From: an uncultured Clostridia bacterium
GTDB lineage: Bacteria > Bacillota > Clostridia > Oscillospirales > Oscillospiraceae
Reading direction: 5' to 3'
Assembly (NCBI GenBank): GCA_945948185.1
Contig: CAMFAL010000015.1
Coordinates: 1-32,151, forward strand
DNA: 32,151 nt
Below, in pieces: positions 441-32,062 of the stretch (its first letter is position 1; every line of letters starts with the position of its first letter). The notes below the pieces were generated by a model that searched no databases, was not told the origin of the DNA, and was given only the letters and a program-made list of their open reading frames with translations. Both the position numbers and the translations under genes were made by a program.

Positions 441-2867
441 TTACTGGGGCTTCACGATCAGGTTGACCAGGCGGTTCTTCACCAAAATGGTCTTGACGAT
501 CTTCATGCCCTCGGTGGCCTTCTGGACCTTTTCCACAGCCAGGGCGGCGTCCACCACGGCCTTCTCCTCGCTGTCGGCGGGCATGGTGATGGTGCCCTTC
601 AGCTTGCCGTTGACCTGGACGGCCATGTCCACGGTGGAAGCCACGGTCTTGCTCTCATCATACACGGGCCACTCCGCCTGGCAGCACATCTTGCCGGTCT
701 GGGCGGCGAAGCCCAGCATCTCCCACAGTTCCTCGGTGATGTGGGGGGCGAAGGGATTCAGCAGCAGGAGCAAGTACTTCACATCACCCTTGGTGACGCC
801 GTTGGCGCTCAGCTCGTTGACCATGGTCATCATGGCGGCGATGGCGGTGTTCATCTTCAGGTTATCGATATCATCGGTAACCTTCTTGATGGTCTTGTGG
901 ATAATGGGCTCGTTGGCGGAGGTCACGTCATAGCTGTCAGAAGCGCCCTCGGCCAGGTTCCAGACACGGTCCAGGAACCGCTTGGAGCCCTTGACGGCCT
1001 CGGTGGACCAGATGGCCGCCTGCTCGAAGTCGCCCACGAACATGATATACAGGCGCATGGTATCGGCGCCGTACTGGGCCACGATATCGTTGGGGTTCAC
1101 CACGTTGCCGCGGGACTTGGACATCTTCTCGCCGCCCTCGCCCAGGATCATGCCGTGGCTGGTGCGCTTGGCGTAGGGCTCCTTGGTGGGCACCACGCCG
1201 ATGTCATACAGGAACTTATGCCAGAAGCGGCTGTACAGCAGGTGCAGGGTGGTGTGCTCCATGCCGCCGTTGTACCAGTCCACGGGAGACCAGTATTCCA
1301 GAGCCTCCTTGGAAGCCAGGGCCTTGTCGTTGTGGGGGTCCATATACCGCAGGAAGTACCAGGAGGAACCGGCCCACTGGGGCATGGTGTCCGTCTCACG
1401 CTGGGCAGGGCCGCCGCACTGGGGGCAGGTGGTGTTGACCCAGTCGGTCATCTTGGACAGGGGGGATTCGCCGGTATCGGTGACCTCGTAGCTGTCCACC
1501 TCAGGCAGCAGCAGGGGCAGCTGGTCCTCCGGCAGGGGCACCCAGCCGCACTTGGGGCAGTTCACCAGGGGGATGGGCTCGCCCCAGTAGCGCTGGCGGG
1601 AGAACACCCAGTCACGGAGCTTGAAGTTGGTCTTGGGATGGCCGATGCCCTGCTCGGTGACCCACTTCTTCATGGTGGGGATAGCCTCCTTGACAGTCAG
1701 GCCGTCCAGGAAGCCGGAGTTCACCATGATGCCGGTGTCGTCCTTCAGGGTGAAGGCCTCCTTGGTGATGTCGCCGCCCTTGACCACCTCGATGATGGGC
1801 AGGCCGAACTTGGTGGCAAACTCCCAGTCGCGCTGGTCGTGGCCGGGCACGCCCATGACGATGCCGGTGCCGTAGCCCATCAGCACGTAGTCGGAAACAA
1901 ACAGGGGCACATGCTTGCCGCTGGCGGGGTTGATACCCTCGATGCCCTCCAGGCGGACGCCGGTCTTTTCCTTGTTCAGCTCGCCGCGCTCGAAGTCAGA
2001 CTTGTGGGCAGCCTCGTCCCGGTAAGCAGCAATCTCGTCCCAGTTCTTGATCTGGTCCTTCCACTGATCCAGGAAGGGATGCTCGGGAGAAATGACCATG
2101 TAGGTCACGCCGAACAGGGTATCGCAGCGGGTGGTGTAGACCGTCAGCTTGTCGCCGTTGGTGGCGGTGAAGTCCACCTCGGTACCCTCGCTGCGGCCGA
2201 TCCAGTTGCGCTGCTGGATCTTGACGCGGTTGATGAAGTCCACGTCCTCCAGATCGTCGATCAGGCGGTCGGCGTACTTGGTGATGGCCAGCATCCACTG
2301 GCTCTTCTCCTTGCGGATGACTTCGCCGCCGCAGCGCTCGCAGACGCCCTCCACGACCTCCTCGTTGGCCAGGACGATCTTGCAGCTGGTGCACCAGTTC
2401 ACGGGCATGGAGGCCTTATAGGCCAGGCCCTTCTTGAACATCTGCAGGAAGATCCACTGGGTCCACTTGTAATAATCAGGGTCAGTGGTGTTGACCTCAC
2501 GGTCCCAGTCGAAGGAGTAGCCCAGCATGTGGAGCTGCTTGCGGAAGTTGGAGATGTTGTCGTGGGTCACCTTGGCGGGATGGATGTGGTTCTTGATGGC
2601 GAAGTTCTCCGTGGGCAGACCGAAGGCGTCATAGCCGATGGGGAACAGGACGTTATAGCCCTGCATCCGCTTCTTGCGGCAGATGATGTCCATAGCGGTA
2701 AAGGGGCGGGCGTGGCCCACATGGAGGCCCTGGCCGGAGGGATAGGGGAACTCGATCAGGCCGAAAAACTTCTCCCGGGTGGTGTCCCCGGTGACGGCAG
2801 CGAAGGGCTTCTCCTCCAGCCACTTCTGCTGCCACTTTTTCTCAATGGCGGTAAAATCGTACTTCAT
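441..2867 (-). CDS. leuS: Leucyl-tRNA synthetase
   Basis: 808 aa; [12 protein letters not shown] (HIGH-type) and KMSKSRGN (KMSKS) motifs. Confidence 0.98.
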
Positions 2868-2894: not shown

Positions 2895-2929
2895 AAAAAA
2901 ACAGCCCCCGACCGTCTCCGGTCAGGGGC
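2895..2929 (-). terminator. Terminator helix of the leuS T-box
   Basis: 10-bp stem plus U tract on minus strand. Confidence 0.88.
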
Positions 2930-3133
2930 GTGGAAAACGCGGTACCACCCTGCTTCAGCCGCCCATCAGGCAGCCCTTGGGAGCCTGTAACGGGGCTAAC
3001 CGTTCCGCCCTACTATGCGTTCAGGCGAAAGACTCCGGGACCAGTATACCGCAGGCTCCCCCACCGGCTCACACCAGCCGCCGGCTCTCTTTGGGCGGGA
3101 CCTCTGGGCTTTCTTCCCATCAAAGTCGCTAAC
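2895..3133 (-). ncRNA. T-box leader of leuS
   Basis: Minus-strand T-box motif CAGGGTGGTACCGCG (2938-2952), AGAGAGCCGGCGGCTGGTG stem I-like segment, terminator GCCCCTGACC-GGAGAC-GGTCGGGGGC followed by TGTTTTTTT; directly upstream of leuS. Probable specifier CTG (Leu) at 3042-3044. Confidence 0.92.
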
Positions 3134-29769: not shown

Positions 29770-30858
29770 ATGAAATACGGTCGTACCTACAACTTCTCCG
29801 CTGGTCCCGCTATGATGCCCGAGCCCGTTCTGGAGGAGATCGCAGCCGAGATGATGAACTACCGCGGCAGCGGCATGTGCGTCATGGAGATGAGCCACCG
29901 CTCCAAGGTGTTCCAGCAGATCCGGGATGAGGCCGAAGCTGACCTCCGCAAGCTGATGGGCATTCCCGACAATTACAAGGTCCTGTTCGTCCAGGGCGGC
30001 GGCACCGTCCAGTTCGCCATGGTCCCCATCAACCTGATGAAGAACGGCGTGGCCTGCTACGTGGAGACCGGTGCCTGGTCCAAGAAGGCCATCGCCGAGG
30101 CCAAGAAGTACGGTGAGGTCAAGATCGTGGCCTCCTCCAAGGACGAAAACTTCTCCTACATCCCCGACTGCTCTGACCTGGACATCCCCGAGGATGCGGA
30201 CTACGTCTACATCTGCGAAAACGAGACCATCAACGGCACCACCTACTTCAAGCTGCCCAACACCAAGGGCAAGATCCTGGTGTCCGACCAGTCCTCCATG
30301 TTCCTCTCCCGCCCCTGTGACGTGAGCAAGTACGGCCTCATCTGGGCCGGTGTGCAGAAGAACGTGGGCCCCGCCGGTATGGCCGTGGTCATCATCCGCG
30401 AGGACCTGATTCGTGAGGATCTGGACCCCAAGACTCCCGTTTACATGAGTTATAAGACCCATGCTGACAACGACTCTATGTACAACACCCCCAACTGCTG
30501 GGCCATCTACTGCTGCGGCAAGGTGTTCAAGTACCTGCTGGATAACGGCGGCCTGGAGGCCATGGCGAAGCGGAATGAGGAGAAAGCCGCCATCCTGTAC
30601 GATTTCCTGGATGAAAGCAAACTGTTCACCGGCGCCGTCCGCAAGGAGGACCGTTCCCTGATGAATGTGCCCTTCGTCACCCCCAGCAAGGAGCAGGATG
30701 CCGACGTAGTGGCCGCTTCCAAGGCCGCTGGCTTTGACAACCTGAAGGGACACAAGTCCGTGGGCGGCCTGCGGGCTTCCATCTACAACGCCATGCCCAA
30801 GGAGGGTGTGGAGGCCCTGGTGGAGTTCCTGAAGGCTTACGAAAAAGAGCACGCCTGA
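29770..30858 (+). CDS. serC: Phosphoserine aminotransferase
   Basis: MKYGRTYNFSAGPAMMPEPVLEEIAAEMMNYRGSGMCVMEMSHRSKVF; WAGVQKNVGPAGMAVVII (PLP Lys); ATG 29770 with GGAGG RBS. Confidence 0.97.
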   Translation: MKYGRTYNFSAGPAMMPEPVLEEIAAEMMNYRGSGMCVMEMSHRSKVFQQIRDEAEADLRKLMGIPDNYKVLFVQGGGTVQFAMVPINLMKNGVACYVETGAWSKKAIAEAKKYGEVKIVASSKDENFSYIPDCSDLDIPEDADYVYICENETINGTTYFKLPNTKGKILVSDQSSMFLSRPCDVSKYGLIWAGVQKNVGPAGMAVVIIREDLIREDLDPKTPVYMSYKTHADNDSMYNTPNCWAIYCCGKVFKYLLDNGGLEAMAKRNEEKAAILYDFLDESKLFTGAVRKEDRSLMNVPFVTPSKEQDADVVAASKAAGFDNLKGHKSVGGLRASIYNAMPKEGVEALVEFLKAYEKEHA

Positions 30859-30878: not shown

Positions 30879-30925
30879 CAATAAAACGATTTCATTGTTT
30901 TATTGCGCCGCATTTTGCGGCGCAA
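30879..30925 (+). terminator. Terminator-like hairpins downstream of serC
   Basis: CAATAAAAC...GTTTTATTG then TTGCGCCGC-ATTTT-GCGGCGCAA. Confidence 0.5.
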
Positions 30926-30999: not shown

Positions 31000-31021
31000 A
31001 AAAACATTTTTAAATGTTTTT
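31000..31021. repeat. AT-rich perfect inverted repeat in serC-serA gap
   Basis: AAAAACATTT-TT-AAATGTTTTT, terminator-like on both strands. Confidence 0.6.
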
Positions 31022-31153
31022 ATTGAAGAATAGTAGGGCTCCCTGGCTTTTGCCAAGCGCCTGTCCCCCAATGGGCGCTGGGATTTTCCAATGTTCAAAC
31101 ATACGCCCCTGGGGTGCGTATACCGGAAAATTGATAAAAAGGGGTAATTGAAT

Positions 31154-32062
31154 ATGTCAATGCGCGTTTTGGTCACTGACGGTATGGACGCCGGCGCCAT
31201 CGAAACCTTACGCCGGGACGGTCATGAGATCGTGGAGCAATTCTATGAGCCCGACCAGCTGGGCGAAGCCCTGCGGGACTTCGACGCGGTCATCATCCGC
31301 TCCGCCACCAAGATCAAGGAGCCCCAGATCGATGCCGCCAAGGGCAGCCGCCTGAAGCTCATCGTCCGGGCCGGTGTCGGTGTGGACAACATTGCGGTCA
31401 AGTACGCCGAGGCGGCGGGCATCACCGTGAAGAATACGCCCCGGGCGTCCTCCAACGCTGTGGCGGAGCTGGCCATCGCCCTTCTGTTCTCCTGCGCCCG
31501 GAATATCTCCATCGCCGGACACACCATGCGGGAGAAAAAGTGGGAGAAGAAAGCCTACTCCAAGGGCTTTGAGGTTATGGGCAAGACCATGGGCGTTATC
31601 GGCTACGGCCGCATCGGCCGTATGGTGGGCGACAAGGCCCAGGCCCTGGGAATGAAGGTGCTGTCTGTGGTCCACCGCAACAAGCCCGAAGGCTGCGAGT
31701 GCGACACCATGCACTTTGTCTCCATGGATGAGCTGCTGGCCCAGTCCGACATCATCGTCCTCTGCGCCCCCGGCGGCGACAAGCCGCTGGTAGACGCCGA
31801 GTCCATTGCAAAGATGAAGGGCGGCGTGGTAATCGTCAATGTGTCCCGGGGCAGCAACGTGGACGAGACCGCTCTGCTGGAAGCCCTGAACAGCGGCAAA
31901 GTCAAGGCCGCAGGTCTGGATGTGTGGCTCAGTGAGAAGAACCCCAACTGGGAACTGGCTTCCCATCCCGCCGTCAGCTGTATGCCCCATGTGGGCGCAG
32001 GTACCAAGGAGGCCCAGAAGCGTATCGGTGCCGAGCTGGTAGACATCATCGAGCATTTCTAA
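31154..32062 (+). CDS. serA: D-3-phosphoglycerate dehydrogenase-like 2-hydroxyacid dehydrogenase, short form without ACT domain
   Basis: 302 aa; LIVRAGVGVDNIAVKYAEAAGI, GVIGYGRIGRMVG, VNVSRGSNVDE, MPHVGAGTKEAQ; follows serC. Confidence 0.9.
   Translation: MSMRVLVTDGMDAGAIETLRRDGHEIVEQFYEPDQLGEALRDFDAVIIRSATKIKEPQIDAAKGSRLKLIVRAGVGVDNIAVKYAEAAGITVKNTPRASSNAVAELAIALLFSCARNISIAGHTMREKKWEKKAYSKGFEVMGKTMGVIGYGRIGRMVGDKAQALGMKVLSVVHRNKPEGCECDTMHFVSMDELLAQSDIIVLCAPGGDKPLVDAESIAKMKGGVVIVNVSRGSNVDETALLEALNSGKVKAAGLDVWLSEKNPNWELASHPAVSCMPHVGAGTKEAQKRIGAELVDIIEHF

Follow-up and report, generated by a model that had tools for sequence, protein, structure and literature searches.

A candidate cis-regulatory RNA leader with two covarying hairpins and Shine-Dalgarno-complementary loops upstream of serA in Oscillospiraceae

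What lies between serC and serA in the contig CAMFAL010000015.1 of an uncultured Clostridia bacterium, and on which strand is it read? A sequence-only reading of the window, which here means the whole stretch of 32,151 nucleotides that was analysed, had described two adjoining three-way junctions just upstream of serA, and had offered two options for them, a leader of serA on the plus strand or an independent small RNA on the minus strand. The comparative analysis presented here identifies a compact element on the plus strand before serA (Table 1), a candidate for an uncatalogued, lineage-restricted family of cis-regulatory RNA.

The gene downstream of the element encodes a short 3-phosphoglycerate dehydrogenase (PGDH). 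In the domain search, SerA has full-length Pfam matches to PF02826 and PF00389, and covers the first 297 of the 525 positions of the TIGR01327 PGDH model with a score below the cut-off, because it lacks the C-terminal part. The Pfam and TIGR01327 profiles thus find the catalytic and NAD domains only, and no ACT or ASB regulatory (allosteric) domain. The upstream partner serC is separated from serA by a gap that ranges from about 100 to over 500 bases in relatives and is not conserved outside the element. At the loci that show serC on the same side, the leader sits between the two genes, and in two loci (L026 and L027) hairpin 1 begins a few bases 3' of the serC stop. No intrinsic terminator was found on the plus strand of the serC-serA gap. 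Elsewhere in the window, a T-box leader (RF00230, 101.6 bits) at 2921-3132 on the minus strand precedes a gene for a class I aminoacyl-tRNA synthetase that resembles leuS (441-2867, minus strand), which is an ordinary arrangement.

Table 1 Features of the serC-serA region of the window.
Feature	Position	Strand	Description
serC, phosphoserine transaminase, upstream partner of serA	29770..30858	+	NF003764 527 bits, TIGR01364, both over cut-off
Whole conserved leader element	31054..31145	+	covariance model R1, E = 9.8e-23, 74.8 bits
Hairpin 1	31056..31079	+	stem AGCGCCUG/UGGGCGCU, loop UCCCCCAA at 31064-31071
Optional helix UUUUCC (31084-31089)/GGAAAA (31125-31130) enclosing hairpin 2	31084..31130	+	part of the lineage
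Hairpin 2	31101..31121	+	stem AUACGC/GCGUAU (31101-31106 with 31116-31121), loop CCCUGGGGU at 31107-31115
serA Shine-Dalgarno (SD) AAAGGGGU	31138..31145	+	complementary to the hairpin 1 C-run and to the loop of hairpin 2 (5' half)
serA, 3-phosphoglycerate dehydrogenase, 302 aa	31154..32062	+	ATG at 31154; Pfam domains

The element is composed of two simple hairpins with invariant loops, followed by an SD that is complementary to both loops and lies outside both hairpins. The stem of hairpin 1 is topped by two G-U pairs, and hairpin 2 is centred on CCCCTGGGGTG. This conserved architecture replaces the two adjoining three-way junctions, of which the AGCGCC/GGCGCT hairpin is real. The letters of the earlier folds are all present: TCCC (31040-31043), TGGC-TTTT-GCCA (31044-31055), AGCGCC...GGCGCT (31056-31079) and GGGA (31080-31083) in the first, and TTTTCC (31084-31089), ATGT-TCAA-ACAT (31091-31102), ACGC...GCGT (31103-31119) and GGAAAA (31125-31130) in the second. 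The absence of any unpaired linker holds for the first fold but not for the second, where A31090 and ATACC (31120-31124) are unpaired. The additional small hairpins are less general. TGGC-TTTT-GCCA, and with it the first three-way fold, is confined to close relatives; across the set, stable hairpins are formed at its place in only 24% of leaders (p<0.05), with a median p of 0.21. ATGT-TCAA-ACAT is absent in close relatives and takes two bases of the hairpin 2 stem, with which it conflicts. Some of the leaders keep the TTTTCC/GGAAAA helix that encloses hairpin 2, in one locus (L229), for example, as the variant UUUGC/GCAAA; the helix is missing from the CCCUUGCG sub-clade and is not significant alone. 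The fold energy of the single sequence is remarkable on neither strand (z = -1.29 for the plus strand and z = -1.85 for the minus strand).

Covariation on homologous serC-serA leaders, a check proposed with the sequence-only reading, supports the stems of hairpin 1 and hairpin 2 (the latter as ATACGC/GCGTAT). The stems were tested on alignment A2 of 33 distinct leaders, with shuffled and slid controls. Over both stems, 95.6% of cells are paired and two-sided changes number 78, vs 20 in the shuffles. The stem covariation score is 0.616 vs 0.276 in the shuffles (reached in 0 of 500), and the slid controls stay at or below 0.16; an earlier set of 27 sequences gave the same covariation outcome. 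Among the 33 homologues, hairpin 1 has 94.8% of cells paired over the seven pairs tested, with two-sided changes in four of them, and hairpin 2 has 96.5% over six pairs, with two-sided changes in five. The loops behave differently from the stems. The loop UCCCCCAA of hairpin 1 is almost invariant in these homologues, and CCCCUGGGGUG of hairpin 2 is constant in 33 of 33, the second genus included. Both loops are near letter-for-letter constant, compared with a mean identity of 0.66 (minimum 0.46) at the 4-fold sites of serA. Together, the paired cells, the covariation and the comparison with 4-fold sites indicate selection for pairing in the stems and for sequence in the loops. The pairings between loop 1 and loop 2 and between the loops and the SD are 98.8% paired with zero two-sided changes; their partners are invariant, which places them outside the reach of covariation.

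The element is tied to a single gene. A covariance model (R1) built from 27 leaders gives a strong match in 37 of 86 genomes of the same genus, all of the inspected ones before serA, and a single strong match in the genome of the window. With two genomes of a second genus, the element precedes serA in 39 genomes, and all 7 genomes checked for the exact pattern contain it once. At homologous serA genes of at least 78% identity, nearly every listed locus keeps the UCCCCCAA loop, the CCCUGGGGU loop and the SD AAAGGGG before the start codon. When 84,980 species genomes were scanned with a short pattern, the genuine copies among the matches listed all lay before serA, in records named Oscillibacter (among them O. 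valericigenes An890 and An411, and Oscillibacter sp. PC13), Dysosmobacter, Oscillospiraceae and uncultured Clostridia. In the two genomes of the second genus, where SerA is 77% identical (measured in one of them), the stems have been replaced and the C-run (CCCCCA), the loop CCCUGGGGU and the GGGG SD are kept: hairpin 1 reads CCCUCCC-CGCCCCCACA-GGGAGGG and hairpin 2 UCCGC-CCCUGGGGU-GCGGA. The element thus combines covarying structure with a fixed position before one gene on the same strand, as cis-regulatory leaders in general do, and its occurrence in 39 genomes of two genera strongly supports the plus-strand option of the sequence-only reading.

SerA relatives of 56-67% identity, from other genera and one from the same genus, mostly have an AAGGAG-type SD and no element; in the same genus, G099 carries a distinct serA of 65% identity with a plain SD and without the element. 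About 26 same-genus genomes of the first search have no close serA of the window type (G003, G008, G009, G010, G011, G017 and others). The search of 394 genomes of the order gave only weak matches outside the genus, the best at 23.8 bits. None of those inspected (L062-L066) lies at serA; they resemble coding sequence or terminator-like sequence. The family matches L242-L244 also proved not to lie at serA. In the GTDB pattern scan, 39-base matches clustered in Monoglobus-like genomes are rplB coding sequence. A motif-like TCCCCCAT...CCCCTGGGGT found in many Clostridia (L122, L127, L129, L140, L172 and others) likewise comes from the coding sequence of rplB (GKSPIGRPGPVTPWG) and can mislead pattern searches.

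In the SerA tree, the carriers form one group and occupy 36 of its 39 leaves; the three non-carrier leaves are scattered among them and retain GGGG ahead of the start codon. The common node of the carriers has modest support (0.65), although a long branch leads to the group. The distribution reads as a single origin of the element followed by a few losses. GGGG is present in the SD of all motif carriers, and also in three relatives with decayed hairpins. Among the decayed forms, L232 has lost hairpin 1 and its hairpin 2 loop has drifted to CUCUGGAGU, by a C-to-U and a G-to-A change at positions able to pair with each other. Such a drift after the loss of hairpin 1 would be expected if pairing with loop 1 keeps the G-run (GGGG) of loop 2 constant, and so supports that pairing indirectly and from one event. 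Moreover, L014 has a degenerate hairpin 1 with the loop UCCGCCAA far upstream, and in L090 and L245 the element is restructured or beyond recognition. Three further loci (L004, L016 and L231) have intact hairpins 1 and 2 split by roughly 100 bp of inserted sequence. The element is not essential, since three genomes have dropped the motif yet keep serA, and several carry inserts of about 100 bp or longer between the hairpins. The inserts in L016, L004 and L231 are always located just 5' of hairpin 2, and their ends resemble inverted repeats. The one in L016 (1325-1455) has 12 further matches in its genome (G001), 13 in total, and is a dispersed repeat.

The conserved letters allow several pairings that involve the SD. 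In the carriers, the CCCC of loop 1 and the RCCCCU of hairpin 2 are complementary to GGGG and AGGGGU, which is the complementarity that SD masking calls for. The calculated duplex of loop 1 with loop 2 (CCCCA/UGGGG) has 5 bp and -9.4 kcal/mol, that of loop 1 with the SD (CCCC/GGGG) has 4 bp and -8.3 kcal/mol, and that of the 5' half of the hairpin 2 loop with the SD has up to 6 bp (ACCCCU/AGGGGU) and -10.1 kcal/mol; the SD and the 16S tail, the latter taken from general knowledge, give -8.0 kcal/mol. In nested folding, the SD is paired with a mean probability of 0.63, to partners that differ by species, so that there is no single consistent SD state. In addition, in the L018-L028 sub-clade, which has the linker ACCCUUGCG, a CCCUU before hairpin 2 is complementary to the SD AAGGG, with pairing probabilities mostly of 0.65-0.97; this CCCUU is predicted to be an additional, clade-specific anti-SD.

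These complementarities suggest a mechanism, and we consider it probable that the element is a cis-acting leader controlling serA translation through exposure or masking of the SD. It would act as a 5' leader within the serC-serA messenger, at translation initiation of serA. The pairings of loop 1 with loop 2, of loop 1 with the SD and of hairpin 2 with the SD would partly exclude one another, and their competition would give either an SD-free (ON) or an SD-masked (OFF) state. A position inside the serC-serA messenger and translational control, rather than attenuation, are indicated because the plus strand has no terminator and the serC stop lies near hairpin 1 in L026 and L027. Pairing of the loops in the cell, translation as the controlled step and the direction of the response are what we infer from the complementarity. 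The signal choosing between the two states would most likely be either a compound of serine metabolism (a product or an intermediate) or the SerA protein. The single target gene per genome is compatible with both signals and provides no regulon to hint at a ligand.

In longer PGDHs, serine feedback inhibition is carried by C-terminal domains. The SerA studied here has no regulatory domain, so control at the level of synthesis would make sense. A more specific form of the proposed leader, which we put forward only tentatively, is a new riboswitch class of one Oscillospiraceae lineage that would sense serine or an intermediate of the phosphorylated pathway directly, and would control SerA translation through a three-way competition of loop, loop and SD. 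If true, the riboswitch would substitute for the allosteric domain missing from the short SerA. We know of no riboswitch that senses serine directly.

The same conservation can be read in terms of a protein site. In autogenous control, SerA or another RNA-binding protein would bind both hairpins, with the loops as its recognition site instead of pairing partners, and block ribosome loading on the serA messenger. The single copy per genome at serA only, its inheritance with one SerA lineage and absence from others, and constant loops on changing stems would all suit such a site. A protein site, however, does not need invariant letters that are mutually complementary C- and G-runs, nor an SD that has itself turned into GGGG, and SerA has no RNA-binding domain beyond the dehydrogenase fold; we regard autogenous control as unlikely, somewhat less so than the remaining alternatives. 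Still less probable is a structure without a regulatory role, such as an element for mRNA stability or processing that fixes how much SerC is made relative to SerA. Intercistronic hairpins are common, and the leader does sit between serC and serA in the loci with serC visible on the same side, but a plain stabiliser needs neither invariant loops complementary to the SD nor a change of the SD to GGGG.

Two further readings place the function in the DNA or on the opposite strand. The palindrome CACCCCTGGGGTG might bind a transcription factor close to a promoter of serA; it is a perfect palindrome of odd length in many carriers, and CCCCTGGGGTG is invariant. Against such an operator, which we consider very improbable, the covarying pairs reach five bases past the invariant core with their letters free, the hairpin 1 loop is not palindromic, and the spacing to the SD and the start codon is kept. 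Moreover, little room is left for a promoter in L026 and L027, where a few bases separate the serC stop from hairpin 1. The independent small RNA running through both folds on the minus strand is the least credible of all and can nearly be set aside. Its hexamers TTGACA-N18-TATCAA are indeed present at 31160-31131, an AT-rich hairpin followed by T's also exists on the minus strand, and folding is slightly better on that strand. The opposing promoter, however, does not hold up among homologues, 7 of 38 having TTGACA and 4 of 38 having TATCAA, and it is not listed by the promoter scan; read on the plus strand, TTGACA becomes TGTCAA, a hexamer overlapping the start codon of serA. The hairpin at 31000-31021, proposed as the minus-strand terminator, is missing in the nearest relatives (e.g. 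L003). The conserved G-run occupies the position of a plus-strand SD, and the conservation as a whole follows the layout of a serA leader, with its SD and fixed spacing to the ATG. We return to the plus-strand leader with SD masking as the preferred reading.

In line with the sequence-only reading, no known class matches the element. A search against Rfam 15 gave no match over it at the gathering threshold or at E up to 10; the sole match at E up to 10 lies outside the element, at 30902-30923. In twelve homologous loci, with E up to 2, Rfam likewise gave nothing over the element. Two RNA-discovery papers do not mention serA in their main text, and the 2017 screen of 224 candidate RNAs was compared via Rfam only. 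The apparent novelty of the element thus rests on Rfam 15 and on these main texts. Among known layouts, guanidine-II (mini-ykkC, RF01068) has two small hairpins with complementary ACGR loops, a short distance apart, upstream of the SD. The serA element shares this arrangement of two hairpins with complementary loops before an SD and differs in the loops, which here are UCCCCCAA and CCCUGGGGU. A guanidine-II score of 25.9 bits in L055, below the cut-off of 32, lies at the start of serA, 3' of the motif, and was taken as chance. Small translational riboswitches that act on the SD, such as the preQ1 classes (e.g. PMC10622847), are similarly compact and directly precede an SD that serves as pairing partner. 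They differ from the serA element, which has no sequence or covariance match to them and consists of two separate hairpins with complementary loops.

Leaders of serine biosynthesis genes are known from other bacteria. In Paenibacillus polymyxa, also a Firmicute, serA has an RNA leader of the T-box type, which is 280 nt long, has a specifier codon and a terminator, and senses serine supply (PMC8002221). The leader described here is about 90 nt long and has no terminator, and no T-box (RF00230) was found before serA by the same search that detects the one at 2921-3132. Functionally, the closest counterpart is the serC element (RF00517) of alpha-proteobacteria, described in 2005, which has two conserved stems, lies upstream of a serC-serA operon and was proposed to mask the ribosome-binding site (PMC1273637). 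Its ligand was left unfound after serine, threonine and PLP-type compounds had been tested (PMC1273637). Both elements are short, have two stems, belong to serine biosynthesis genes and have a proposed masking of the SD. RF00517, however, lies before serC, after a promoter, whereas the Oscillospiraceae element lies between serC and serA, and the RF00517 model matches neither the element in the window nor the homologous loci. RF00517 has the SD inside the stem of its last hairpin and a GNRA loop, in contrast to the serA leader, where the SD lies outside the hairpins and is complementary to their loops. The Oscillospiraceae element would be a second, unrelated leader of the serine pathway, found in gut bacteria; its simple anatomy is testable by point mutation, the three serA genes without the element are natural controls, and the comparison may offer a new handle on the ligand question of RF00517.
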